This document shows, in pieces, positions 1-44,890 of a stretch of 44,890 bases of DNA. The stretch comes from Sphaerochaeta sp. Phil3. Lineage in GTDB: Bacteria > Spirochaetota > Spirochaetia > Sphaerochaetales > Sphaerochaetaceae. The notes beneath the pieces were generated by a model. That model searched no databases and had not been told where the DNA came from. It worked only from the letters and a program-made list of their open reading frames with translations. Location: the NCBI GenBank assembly GCA_001940825.1, contig MSGT01000047.1:1-44890 (forward strand). The letters are read 5' to 3'. The position numbers and the translations under genes were made by a program. The first letter of the stretch is position 1. The number at the start of each line of letters is the position of its first letter.

Positions 1-122
1 CCCCCAACTTTCCGTGAAGAACCTTTCATTTTAGGCTCTCTTTTGTGCATATCCAAATGTACCTGCATGAAACGAGGTCTCAAAACAAAAGAGGCTCAAG
101 GATATCGGTCTTGGAGGATTCT

Positions 123-17224: not shown

Positions 17225-17390
17225 GAATTTTCAAAACCGCTTCATTCTCCTTGTCTCTGCCCTGTGTGGCTGGAAAGCCGCCTTTGTGAGGCTGTTGGTC
17301 CCGTTCTCTGTGGTTTACAAGGCCGTTGGGGCTTACTGGATCTACGGGGTCGTTGGGACGCTTGAAGACTGCTGAATCATCACTACCCCA
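17225..17390. other. Non-coding spacer
   Basis: Between the inverted repeat and the decamer array I see no gene. A short open frame crosses it (17184-17375), but it has no good ribosome binding site and runs over the inverted repeat, so I do not call it. Confidence 0.4.
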
Positions 17391-17460
17391 CAGCGTCCTG
17401 CAACGCCCATCAACGCCATACTACGCCATACAGCGCCCATCAACGCCCATCAAGGCTACC
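17391..17460 (-). repeat. 10-bp tandem array, consensus CAACGCCCAT
   Basis: Seven contiguous decamers: CAGCGTCCTG, CAACGCCCAT, CAACGCCATA, CTACGCCATA, CAGCGCCCAT, CAACGCCCAT, CAAGGCTACC. The same decamer family appears in reverse orientation at 43551-43665. Confidence 0.85.
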
Positions 17461-21876: not shown

Positions 21877-23049
21877 ATGAACGAGAAATGTGATATGAAA
21901 TGTGATGTGAAATCTGGTATGAATCCTGGTATGAAATCTGATATGAAGTCCGGTTTCGCTGAAGCTGTACGCCATGAATTTGATACCAAGGTTGCCCGTG
22001 TCCGCAGTCTTTTGGCAGCCAAAGGCTTGGATGCCGCCTTCATAAAGAGACAGGACAACTTTGCTTGGCTTACATGCGGTGGTCGCAACTATGTTGGAAT
22101 GGGGGAGGTTGGCAACTGCGGCCTTCTTGTGACTTTGAAAGGACTCTTTGCCATTACCAACAATATAGAGGCTCCGCGCATGGTAGCAGAAGAGCATGTA
22201 GAGGAGCTTGGCTTCGATGTCCGCTATGGCGTATGGCATGACAACGGATTCCAGAACAGGGTTCTGGCTGAGCTTGTACCATCTGGTCGCATTGGGTTCG
22301 ATACCGGTGATCTGGCGGACGGCATAAAGGCTCTGCGCTTTGATTTGACTTCTGAGGAGATCGAGCGCTACGTTGCAATTGGCAATGATGCTTCAAGGGC
22401 TTTGGAAGAGGCCGGCATGGAGATTTCCGTTGGCGACAGCGAGTACGAGATAGCAGGCCTCATCATGGACAAGATGGAGGCCTGCGGTCTTGAGCTCCTT
22501 TCATGCATGGTCGCTGCAGACGAGAGGATATCCCTGTATAGGCATCCTCTTCCGACTTCCAAGAGGGTGAAGGAGAAGGTCCAGATTGGCGGAAACTTCA
22601 GACGCAACGGCCTTGTGGTCTGCATGACTCGCTATGTCTACTTCGTTGAGCCTTCCTCTGAGATCCTCTCCCAGCTGGAGGCCAACCAGATAATAGACTG
22701 CACATACATGGCTGCTTGCAAGCCGGGTGCTACCTATGTCTCAGCCCTTGAAGCTGGCAAGGCTGCATACGAGAAGCTTGGCTATGCCGCCGAGTTCGAC
22801 AAGCACCACCAAGGCGGACCAATTGGATATGCAGGGCGTGACTATAGAGTGGATTTCTCCACTCCAGGAGTCATTTCAGACCATCATGCGTTCTGTTGGA
22901 ATCCTTCGATCACTGGAACGAAGAGCGAGGATACTGTAATATGCACGAAAGACTGTGTGATTCCTGTGTCCCATCCTGTTCTTTTCCCAAAGGTGGAGAT
23001 CGTCGTCGATGGAAAGACGTTCGTTCGTCCTGGAATCCTCGTCAGATAA
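21877..23049 (+). CDS. M24 (aminopeptidase P-like) family protein, probably without metal site
   Basis: A 390-residue protein with the creatinase-type N-terminal domain and the pita-bread C-terminal domain of M24 peptidases. The His-containing segment KHHQGGPIGYAGRD is conserved. Aligned by eye, however, the two metal-binding Asp residues appear replaced (IGGNFRRNGLVVCMTR, D to G and D to C) and the first metal-binding Glu is Asn (WNPSI). It may therefore be a non-peptidase, binding or hydrolysing another substrate. The first 27 residues contain six tetrapeptide repeats encoded by 12-bp units. It is the last gene of the Tct operon, and AAGGAGAGGG precedes the start. Confidence 0.8.
   Translation: MNEKCDMKCDVKSGMNPGMKSDMKSGFAEAVRHEFDTKVARVRSLLAAKGLDAAFIKRQDNFAWLTCGGRNYVGMGEVGNCGLLVTLKGLFAITNNIEAPRMVAEEHVEELGFDVRYGVWHDNGFQNRVLAELVPSGRIGFDTGDLADGIKALRFDLTSEEIERYVAIGNDASRALEEAGMEISVGDSEYEIAGLIMDKMEACGLELLSCMVAADERISLYRHPLPTSKRVKEKVQIGGNFRRNGLVVCMTRYVYFVEPSSEILSQLEANQIIDCTYMAACKPGATYVSALEAGKAAYEKLGYAAEFDKHHQGGPIGYAGRDYRVDFSTPGVISDHHAFCWNPSITGTKSEDTVICTKDCVIPVSHPVLFPKVEIVVDGKTFVRPGILVR
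21886..21957 (+). repeat. 12-bp in-frame tandem repeat in the M24 gene
   Basis: Six units of the AAATCTGATATG type encode KCDM, KCDV, KSGM, NPGM, KSDM and KSGF at residues 4-27. This tail precedes the start of homology to the family. Confidence 0.85.
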
Positions 23050-27252: not shown

Positions 27253-27269
27253 TCTTCTTTGCAAGAAGA
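27253..27269. promoter_or_regulatory. 17-bp palindrome in the feoAB promoter
   Basis: TCTTCTT and AAGAAGA arms around TGC. On the minus strand it overlaps a possible -35 (TTGCAA), which is followed 18 bp later by TATTGT as a possible -10 for feoAB. This fits an operator for a dimeric repressor; it matches neither the Fur nor the DtxR consensus well. Confidence 0.5.
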
Positions 27270-27281
27270 TTTCTCTATATC

Positions 27282-27361
27282 TGCGTATTGTTGGATTTTA
27301 AGCTTGCTATAAACCTGCGTATTGTTGGGAATTTAGCTGTTGTCAATCTTGCGTATTGTTG
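27282..27361 (+). repeat. Three repeats of TGCGTATTGTTG spaced exactly 34 bp
   Basis: Copies start at 27282, 27316 and 27350; the first two share a thirteenth base. They fill the divergent spacer between feoAB and the ATPase gene. The third overlaps the -35 box of the ATPase promoter. Confidence 0.85.
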
Positions 27362-27377
27362 AAAAGTCCGTTATTAT
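27349..27377 (+). promoter_or_regulatory. Promoter of the DUF4143 ATPase gene
   Basis: TTGCGT at 27349-27354, a 17-bp spacer, and TATTAT at 27372-27377, 20 bp before the start codon. The -35 lies inside the third 34-bp-spaced repeat. Confidence 0.5.
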
Positions 27378-27397
27378 CTCTTTAGAGACAAAGAAGT

Positions 27398-32858: not shown

Positions 32859-32923
32859 GCTGATTTGAAGAGTGGTTGTTTTCTCTCGCAAGGTTTCTTG
32901 TGTTTTTGCCTTTTCATGCCTGT
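32859..32923. other. Spacer after tldE, nothing recognised
   Basis: About 65 bp between the stop codon and the first array, with T-rich stretches but no clear hairpin terminator. Confidence 0.4.
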
Positions 32924-32995
32924 CTGGACAGTCTAGACAGACTAGGCGCTCTAGACGTTCTAGCCAATCTAGCCGCTCCTGCCAATCTAAAACGG
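32924..32995 (+). repeat. 9-bp tandem array, consensus CTAGNCNNT
   Basis: Eight nonamers: CTGGACAGT, CTAGACAGA, CTAGGCGCT, CTAGACGTT, CTAGCCAAT, CTAGCCGCT, CCTGCCAAT, CTAAAACGG. Repeated CTAG is notable because this tetramer is usually rare in bacterial DNA. Confidence 0.85.
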
Positions 32996-33010
32996 TCTGG
33001 ATTTTGAGAA

Positions 33011-33090
33011 TTCGGGTCGCTTAGGTATGTTCAGGGGCCATCAGGTACGCTTAGACACTATCATGTACTATCTGGAGCGCTCTGGCTCGT
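33011..33090 (+). repeat. 10-bp tandem array, consensus TCAGGTACGY
   Basis: Eight decamers in strict register: TTCGGGTCGC, TTAGGTATGT, TCAGGGGCCA, TCAGGTACGC, TTAGACACTA, TCATGTACTA, TCTGGAGCGC, TCTGGCTCGT. Confidence 0.75.
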
Positions 33091-33115
33091 CTGAAATTCA
33101 ATGGTCGTCAAGCGT

Positions 33116-42551: not shown

Positions 42552-43544
42552 ATGCAGGATCTTGAAAAGTGCATCTGGTTTCCGTTCAGCGATGAACCTC
42601 TTGTCTCCGGTGGAAGGCTTACTCCAACGCTCTGCGACCCGCAGGTCCTTCTTCCAGAGCAGTCGTGCGATGGAAAGTGGCATCTTTTCTACCATACTTG
42701 GCTTGGTCTTCACCATTGTATGTCTTCCAGCGGCATAGCATGGGAGGCCAGCCGTCTCATTGAGCCTCGAGGTCATTCGCCTTTCATTTTCATTGAGAAC
42801 GAGAACTACTATCTTTTGTACGAGAAGCATGACGGCAGTATGCCGTTCATAAACAACCGCACGGGAGAGGGTAAGCACGATTCGTATTCATGCTTTGAGA
42901 TGAAGACCTCTACGGATCTTGTGACATGGAGCAAGCCCCGTCTCATCCTTGACAGCAGGACGATTCCCTTTGCAGGCGACTATCTCAAATACCCCAGGAT
43001 TTCAAGGCCACAGCTTGTGAAGGCCGGCGATGAATACACCCTTTTCTTTGGGGCGTCGCATCTTGTGCTTCCCGATACCAAGCAGAAGGTCTCTCGCTAT
43101 TTTGCCTGCGCCACTTCCCCTGCCGTAAGCGGCCCTTATTCCATGAAGAAGCCTGAGCGTCCGCTTCTTGAGCCAATTCCAGACGACCCTTGGTCCAACC
43201 TTGGCTGTGGAAGCATAAGGGTGGTCCCTTGCGGAGATGTGCTGTATGCCTTCCAGTGCCCGGTGTTCTGGAACCAGGAGAAGAAGCGCACGAGCTCTGT
43301 CATGGTGCTCCTTAGGTCAGAGGACGGATACAACTGGTCACGCTGCGGTTCAAGGCCAATCCTCGTCCCTGCTGACAAAGGGTGGTCGAGTTCCTACATC
43401 ATGGGATGTGATGTCCACTACAAAGCCGATGAAAAGTGCTGGTATTGCTATTTCTCCGCAAGCGGCGAAAAGGAGCTCTTCTTCAAGAAGGAGTCCATTG
43501 GACTATTGCTTGGCAACGTGCCAAACGATGCCTTGAAGGGGTGA
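42552..43544 (+). CDS. GH43-like five-bladed beta-propeller protein
   Basis: A 330-residue protein with the repeated beta-propeller pattern of the GH43/GH32/GH117 group: TLCDPQVLLPEQSCDGKWHL near residue 30, ARG-like SPFIFIENENYYLLYEK, RPQLVKAGDEYTLFF, and GCGSIRVVPCGDVLYAF. Such proteins cleave arabinosides, xylosides or related glycans. No signal peptide is present, so a cytosolic role on imported oligosaccharides is likely. The acidic triad cannot be assigned safely by eye. GGAAGG stands before the ATG. It ends where the 43.6-kb decamer array begins. Confidence 0.75.
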   Translation: MQDLEKCIWFPFSDEPLVSGGRLTPTLCDPQVLLPEQSCDGKWHLFYHTWLGLHHCMSSSGIAWEASRLIEPRGHSPFIFIENENYYLLYEKHDGSMPFINNRTGEGKHDSYSCFEMKTSTDLVTWSKPRLILDSRTIPFAGDYLKYPRISRPQLVKAGDEYTLFFGASHLVLPDTKQKVSRYFACATSPAVSGPYSMKKPERPLLEPIPDDPWSNLGCGSIRVVPCGDVLYAFQCPVFWNQEKKRTSSVMVLLRSEDGYNWSRCGSRPILVPADKGWSSSYIMGCDVHYKADEKCWYCYFSASGEKELFFKKESIGLLLGNVPNDALKG

Positions 43545-43550
43545 TTTGAG

Positions 43551-43670
43551 GCATTGAGGCTTTGAGCGGCTTTGATGGGCGCTGAAGGGCGTTGTATGGC
43601 GGAGTATGGCGCTGAAGGGCGTTGTATGGCGGAGTATGGCGCTGAAGGGCGCTGTGGGACGCTGTAGAAT
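43551..43670 (+). repeat. 10-bp tandem array with 30-bp higher-order unit
   Basis: About eleven decamers with consensus GCTGAAGGGC. A perfect 30-bp block (GCTGAAGGGC, GTTGTATGGC, GGAGTATGGC) occurs at 43581-43610 and 43611-43640, followed by a further GCTGAAGGGC. Reverse-complemented, the units match the array at 17391-17460 (GCCCATCAAC, GCCATACAGC type). Confidence 0.9.
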
Positions 43671-43699
43671 TGATGGAGATGAATGAAGGAGGTTTGTTC

Positions 43700-44890
43700 A
43701 TGACGATTGAAGAGATACTGTCAAAGGAAGAGAGTCAGACATTTGACCGTAAAAGTATCATGATAAAGCCAACAGACCTTTCCGATACAGTGTGTGCGTT
43801 TGCAAATGCGGATGGTGGTGTCATTGTCATAGGTGTTTCCGATAAGCATCGTCGGATTGAAGGAGTTGGCAAATACAAAGGACTTTTGAATGAGATCCTT
43901 AGGGTTCCTGTCGACTTTTGCAATCCTTCGGTTCCTTTGACAACTGAGCTTGTTCCTTGTACAAATTCTGAAGGAGCTTTTGACCATGTTTTGCTAATGC
44001 GTATAGAGGCCAGCTCTCTTCTTCATTCCAATCAGGCTGACGAGGTTTATGTAAGAGTCGGAGATAAAAGTAAGAAACTTGGTTTTCAAGATAGGCTTTC
44101 TCTTTTGTATGCAAAAGGCCTACGTTCCTACGAGGACGAACCCGTCTATAGCGCAACGATTGACGATATTGATTTGGGTTTTGTGAAAGAATATACTTCT
44201 AGAATAGGGTATAGAAAAACTCCTGAAGAATACATCAGACAGAACAACCGATTTGTTACCAAGAAAGGAAATCTCGAACAAGTCTCTGTCGCTGCAATTC
44301 TTCTTTTTGGAAAGAACCCACAAGAGTTTTTCCCTCGTGCAAGAATCAGATTTGTTCGATATGATGGAAACGAACCCAAAGTAGGAAACGATATGAACGT
44401 CATAAAAGACGTTTGTTTTGAAGGGCGCATTCTGGATCAAGTTCGTGATGCAGTGGATTACATAAAAACTCAAATGAAAGAAAGAACATATCTGGGCAAT
44501 GATGGAGTTTTTACTTTCGAAGAAGAGTATGGAGAGTTCGTTCGCACAGAAGTTGTTGTAAACGCTGTAACGCACAGAGACTATGGTATAAAAGGTACTG
44601 ACATTCAAATAAAGATGTTCAATGACAGATTGGAAGTAGACAGTCCGGGAACCTTTGCTGGTATGGTTAGGAAGGATAACATCAGGTATACGCACTTTTC
44701 CAGGAATCCTAAAATTGCAGCTTTCCTTAGAGATTATGGTTATGTGAAGGAATATGGCGAAGGTGTAGACCGTATGTGTCTGGAGTTGGAGGCCTTGGGA
44801 TTGCCAGATCCTGTATTTCACAGCGACACATTCATACTCAAGACGATTATTGAAGGGTATTCTTCCGAAAAGTTGCCGATTGGAGACGAA
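43700..44890 (+). CDS. Schlafen/AlbA_2-type ATP-binding regulator, cut by the window edge
   Basis: At least 397 residues, open to the end of the window with no stop codon. The N-terminal AlbA_2/Schlafen-like domain (about residues 1-125) starts MTIEEILSKEESQTFDRKS and has AFANADGGVIVIGVSDK. The C-terminal GHKL-like part contains EVVVNAVTHRDYG near residue 280 and EYGEGVDRM near residue 353. Such proteins are presumed transcriptional regulators, common in gut bacteria and frequently in variable regions. AAGGAGG precedes the ATG. In the N-terminal motif FDRKS an Asp stands where E is common. Confidence 0.85.
   Translation, partial: MTIEEILSKEESQTFDRKSIMIKPTDLSDTVCAFANADGGVIVIGVSDKHRRIEGVGKYKGLLNEILRVPVDFCNPSVPLTTELVPCTNSEGAFDHVLLMRIEASSLLHSNQADEVYVRVGDKSKKLGFQDRLSLLYAKGLRSYEDEPVYSATIDDIDLGFVKEYTSRIGYRKTPEEYIRQNNRFVTKKGNLEQVSVAAILLFGKNPQEFFPRARIRFVRYDGNEPKVGNDMNVIKDVCFEGRILDQVRDAVDYIKTQMKERTYLGNDGVFTFEEEYGEFVRTEVVVNAVTHRDYGIKGTDIQIKMFNDRLEVDSPGTFAGMVRKDNIRYTHFSRNPKIAAFLRDYGYVKEYGEGVDRMCLELEALGLPDPVFHSDTFILKTIIEGYSSEKLPIGDE

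Follow-up and report, generated by a model that had tools for sequence, protein, structure and literature searches.

Near the end of a 44,890-nt stretch of Sphaerochaeta sp. Phil3 DNA (the window), the spacer between two genes on the same strand is filled by a tandem array of degenerate decamers that carries a 30-bp higher-order repeat of its own. Does this array regulate the gene that it precedes, or is it one copy of something that has spread through the genome?

On the plus strand, 11 in-register units of a GGCG decamer occupy positions 43558–43667 (sequence, TRF and array listing). They are preceded by an irregular 5′ edge with one 8-bp spacing (TTTGAGGCATTGA, 43545–43557, plus strand, from the sequence), and an 8-bp irregular unit, GGCATTGA, lies ahead of the decamers. 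Two identical 30-mers at 43578–43607 and 43608–43637, each composed of GGCGCTGAAG GGCGTTGTAT GGCGGAGTAT, are followed by a partial third copy in which 17 of the next 18 bases match. TRF assigned this higher-order repeat (43578–43655, plus strand) a score of 149, with a period of 30, 2.6 copies and 97% match, and also reported 8.2 copies of period 10 at 43573–43654. Among 40 dinucleotide shuffles of the window the highest TRF score was 67, so the repeat is not a product of chance. The sequence-only reading of this locus, a decamer array with a perfect 30-bp higher-order repeat, is therefore borne out, and the range that it gave, 43551–43670, was correct to within a few bases.

That reading had the array starting within a few bases of a GH43-like stop codon and ending 30 bp before the next gene; the distances are 13 bp from the stop (43544) to the array and 32 bp from its last unit to the ATG at 43700. 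The upstream GH43-like gene (42552–43544, plus strand; ORF and comparison with relatives) is conserved across the genus at 73–76% identity, with a Pfam GH43 match that is sub-threshold (23.9 versus 32.2 bits). Downstream, a Shine–Dalgarno-like AAGGAGG (43686–43692, plus strand, from the sequence) leads into a SLFN_AlbA_2/HATPase_c_4 gene (43700–44890, plus strand; Pfam) that runs beyond the window and is interrupted by an N gap just past the window end. Among named organisms, the flanking gene has its closest relatives in Sphaerochaetaceae and Spirochaetales genomes of rumen and gut origin.

The window array has many counterparts. A search with its DNA gave 18 matches in the 2.36-Mb genome that carries it, that of an uncultured gut member of the Sphaerochaetaceae, and GGCGNNGNNNGGCGNNGNNNGGCG, allowing 2 mismatches at most, occurs 122 times there versus 6 for a reversed control. 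We characterised 22 polar decamer arrays of 4–12 units each on many contigs, a list that is the product of targeted searches and that the real total may exceed. The genome is one incomplete draft of 72 contigs, apparently metagenome-assembled as its relatives are, and many of these contigs end at these repeats. By simple ORF calls, the arrays are tandem, non-coding and located in intergenic spacers. A second GGCG-decamer array in the window (17378–17457, minus strand, 8 units; DNA match and array listing) lies among other short-period modules in a spacer of 480 bp. At lag 10, intergenic autocorrelation sets this genome apart from its genus relatives (z 4.6 versus 0.2), and the lag-10 signal of the window drops to z 2.1 once its two GGCG arrays are removed. 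We set aside an excess at lag 9 as a repeat signal, as it is inseparable from residual coding signal and appears in the relatives too.

Beyond their common core, the arrays share an order of units. They start with a TTTGATG-type first unit followed by GGCGYTGTAT, GGCGGAGTAT, GGCGTTGATG and GGCGTTGTAG, and they close with a final unit, for example GACGCTGTGG or GACGCATCAG. In 19 of 22 arrays a GACG unit is last or next to last, a count that none of 5,000 within-array permutations matched, and the terminal unit of the window array, GACGCTGTAG (43658–43667, plus strand), is this conserved end unit of the family. Units resemble each other nearly as much between arrays (0.60) as within an array (0.64), which argues that ready-made multi-unit arrays were copied and not born independently. 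Most arrays that have GGCGGAGTAT have it once; it is doubled in the window array and in the array on contig C60, both with a 30-bp period, and the 30-bp block is present in these two arrays only. The earlier description of the locus as a miniature of higher-order satellite structure was thus apt, the array belonging to a dispersed decamer family and its 30-bp doubling being found also on C60.

The family is lineage-specific in the comparisons made. None of the 30 relatives searched, of which ten belong to the same genus (several genomes being 63–93% complete), has DNA that matches the window array, and the decamer pattern stays near control level in 138 other genomes of the bacterial family. 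An exact 21-bp pattern has no match in a collection of 84,980 species genomes, from which the own genome was possibly left out. Matches on viral contigs were rejected as family members, all being one unrelated 10-mer simple repeat. Judged by these sequence comparisons, the decamer family is species-specific, absent above chance from the relatives compared. The reading that we favour, and hold to be probable, is that the window array belongs, as one copy among many, to a dispersed, non-coding decamer satellite family specific to this species, that it was shaped by spread and by a 30-bp duplication, and that it is probably a tolerated spacer.

One feature that counts against this reading is the register of the arrays. 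Across arrays, 135 of the 138 core-to-core spacings measure exactly 10 bp, and such a near-perfect register, nearly free of indels although the units have strongly diverged, fits poorly with simple neutral decay, which should break it more often. Between homologous mini-transposons we counted about 0.06 gap openings per substitution. The register, together with the conserved polarity, speaks for a protein-binding or DNA-bending element that would present one GGCG core per helical turn and align a nucleoid or regulatory protein on one face, as does the alternation of GC-rich and AT-rich halves at every turn in the sequence; but sister modules in the same spacers use 9-bp units (TCTAGNCNN), which would lose the helical phase, and the position of the arrays relative to genes is inconsistent, so we regard such an element as unlikely. 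We give no better odds to its extended form, in which the polar arrays would be binding platforms, selection would keep the register and the GACGC end, a dedicated protein would sit at each turn, and the composite 9-/10-mer modules would make up a species-unique, genome-wide intergenic system.

Action through RNA is a further alternative. The G-rich strand could form a long G–U-containing hairpin that changes how stable the flanking transcripts are or how well they are translated, the AlbA_2 transcript in this case. The predicted fold of the window array RNA, at −49.7 kcal/mol, lies at z −6.1 relative to dinucleotide shuffles, versus z −1.5 for the opposite strand. This apparent strength mostly disappears under periodicity-keeping shuffles, in which the same column permutation is applied to all units: the mean fold z is only −0.8 over 20 arrays, with the window array at the 3% level. 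The arrays searched against Rfam gave no match, and their orientation relative to the downstream gene is mixed, with 9 in the same and 12 in the opposite direction by crude ORF calls. A role through RNA accordingly strikes us as quite improbable.

The neighbourhood of the window array in related genomes bears on how it arrived. In all ten genus relatives (10/10), the GH43-like gene adjoins a convergent alpha/beta-hydrolase gene, the match ends lying 6–42 bp apart, whereas in the Phil3 genome these two genes are separated by 1.71 kb that hold the array and the SLFN_AlbA_2 gene. As the flanking genes abut in every one of these relatives, the array and the SLFN_AlbA_2 gene together constitute a lineage-specific 1.71-kb insertion. 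Copy number varies to this extent: no decamer unit is found at the orthologous spacer in the ten relatives, compared with 4–12 per array within the own genome. Arrays on contigs C46 and C41 stand beside genes that we take, from their sequences, to be uxaC-like and pyrG, respectively; relatives have no array there, and the neighbours differ. An insertion of this kind invites the view that array and AlbA_2 gene moved together as a mobile cassette by means of an enzyme of their own, but neither terminal inverted repeats (TIRs) nor a target duplication was recognised at the insertion ends, and the three closest own-genome AlbA_2 paralogues checked have no nearby arrays, making a joint cassette very unlikely.

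The sequence-only reading had further suggested that the array affects expression of the downstream gene. As a general role of the arrays, this tuning finds no support. Of the arrays flanked by genes on both sides, 10 sit in tandem spacers, 6 in convergent and 3 in divergent ones (crude ORF calls), and, as described above, both orientations occur; a search of 43300–43800 gave no sigma-70-like promoter or terminator; and the closest own-genome AlbA_2 paralogue, on contig C45, has no decamer array upstream. Least credible of all the alternatives is that the array works as a phase-variation switch for the AlbA_2 gene or as its copy-number rheostat, since, although the array fills the leader of that gene up to 32 bp before its ATG and slippage could produce 30-bp changes, the region offers no promoter-like site, the paralogue does without an array, and a 30-bp step leaves both the reading frame and the distance from Shine–Dalgarno sequence to ATG unchanged. 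The window array, filling the AlbA_2 leader as it does, may still have a private effect of that one copy. The loss of most of the fold signal under periodicity-keeping shuffles, the mixed spacers and orientations and the lack of a promoter or terminator in the region searched together favour tolerated, spreading spacer DNA, and the window array is probably such DNA and not a regulator.

How satellite copies of this kind could spread is suggested by the company that they keep. Long spacers of the genome hold ordered composites of short-period modules: 9-mers of TCTAGNCNN, a linker AAAACGGTCTAG, TCAGGYACNN 10-mers (40 pattern matches in the genome versus 0 in a control), CTCTGAAACGCTCTAC, sometimes a GGCG array, and then TTCAACGGTCTTCAAGMGCC. 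A GGCG array stands within such a composite on contig C4, in two copies. The window has its own composite of sister modules at 32859–33100 (plus strand; TRF and module comparison), in which TCTAG 9-mers are joined by a fixed linker, AAAACGGTCTGGATTT, to 10-mers of TCAGGTAC; this composite is found at about 20 further places in the genome.

Several composites are bounded by TIRs that start with GGYTCTTCACG. Perfect 8-bp target duplications flank four of the genome's own elements, on C19 (GAAAAATG), C3 (AAAACATT), C46 (TTTTTCTT) and C66 (TAAAAATT), and are missing at four other own TIR pairs examined. The C19 element spans 713 bp (1902–2614 of the C19 fragment), with a TIR pair, GAAAAATG on both sides and a GGCG array inside; it is too short for a transposase gene and has the features of an ISL3-type MITE. 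ISL3 elements have GGYTCTT-like ends and generate 8-bp duplications. A genus relative (G007) carries a 1,421-bp, autonomous-looking ISL3-family element (L222:1501–2921) with matching TIRs and an 8-bp duplication, AAAAAAGA; the tested basis of the ISL3 assignment is the transposase match in this element, which lies above the cut-off for both PF01610 (203 bits) and NF033550 (268 bits). Only two ISL3 transposase matches remain in the own genome, both fragmentary. The C19 TIRs and 8-bp duplication, taken with the transposase element of the relative, indicate that a miniature element of ISL3 type has carried at least one GGCG array with it as it moved.

The C31 and C60 arrays have one recognisable TIR each, and most arrays, the window array included, have no recognisable bounding TIRs. 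For the window array we found no convincing GGYTCTTCACG TIR near 43545–43700, and the array lies outside any TIR-bounded element. At the other end of the window, which is also the contig start, positions 1–23 (minus strand) belong to the TIR sequence GGTTCTTCACGGAAAGTTGGGGG of a miniature element of ISL3 type, at which other contigs end too. Inverted repeats that we had picked out by eye in the flanks of the C35 and C4 arrays were discarded, as 119 of 400 permutations with mismatched flanks reached the observed mean.

For the satellite reading these observations suggest a course of events. Multi-unit segments would have spread into spacers through ISL3-type transposition and other copying or rearrangement, and slippage or unequal exchange would afterwards have added units to the arrays and removed others. 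Basic arrays contain the similar units TTTGATGGGC and GTTGATGGGC 30 bp apart, flanking a pair of the GTTGTATGGC–GGAGTATGGC type. Misalignment between units of the TTTGATGGGC and GTTGATGGGC types, by slippage or unequal exchange, would add exactly 30 bp, and on this comparison of unit orders a recent duplication between like decamers 30 bp apart best accounts for the 30-bp order of the window array. The doubling on C60 has its own third unit, GGCGTTGATG in place of GGCGCTGAAG, so that the doubling occurred twice or was later homogenised.

Repeats of other kinds are also present. Tandem blocks of about 110 bp at L160:2150–2590 and L032:1890–2460, with a hairpin around AGTACTNNNTGTAC and a GACCAAGAA...TTCGCAGG motif, occur in several spacers and have no Rfam match. 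In the window, two divergent genes have between them, at 27265–27397, three copies of TGCGTATTGTTG spaced by about 34 bp, possibly operator sites, and a 12-bp repeat near an ORF start at 21877–21950 would encode a tandem Met-Lys-Xaa-Asp/Gly repeat.

For the decamer family, the unit order, the mini-transposons that carry some of its copies and the empty sites in sister species are all legible, which makes it possible to trace, in a small genome, how a satellite is born, spreads and grows into higher-order repeats. We found no earlier description of the family in the open-licence literature. Two known systems come closest to it. One is that of another spirochaete, Leptospira interrogans, which has dispersed non-coding satellite families said by the authors to be rare in prokaryotes; the families listed there have repeats of 37–69 nt, and short repeats are absent (PMC6749651, 2019). 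Both genomes hold non-coding tandem units in related arrays at many places. Unlike the L. interrogans satellites, with units above 30 nt, the decamer family has a 10-bp unit, with a 30-bp block in two arrays only, a preferred unit order, a terminal unit and one array inside an ISL3-type MITE. The other is the direct repeats of the heptamer TAACTGA in Beggiatoaceae, Cyanobacteria and Bacteroidetes; those of Maribeggiatoa are copies of a near-invariant 7-mer that mostly precede start codons by a few bases (MacGregor 2015, PMC4679880). They too form many short-unit intergenic arrays across one genome, but the decamer is a degenerate 10-mer found in any spacer type and orientation, with no consistent position relative to start codons. 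ISL3-family MITEs resemble the C19 copy in its TIR-bounded element with 8-bp duplication, for which a relative has the matching transposase element, and differ from the window array, which has neither TIR nor target duplication. Finally, VNTR or minisatellite loci, which are used in bacterial typing, are likewise short tandem repeats in spacers for which variation in unit number is expected; unlike such isolated loci, the decamer arrays are a family with a common unit order at 22 places in one genome.
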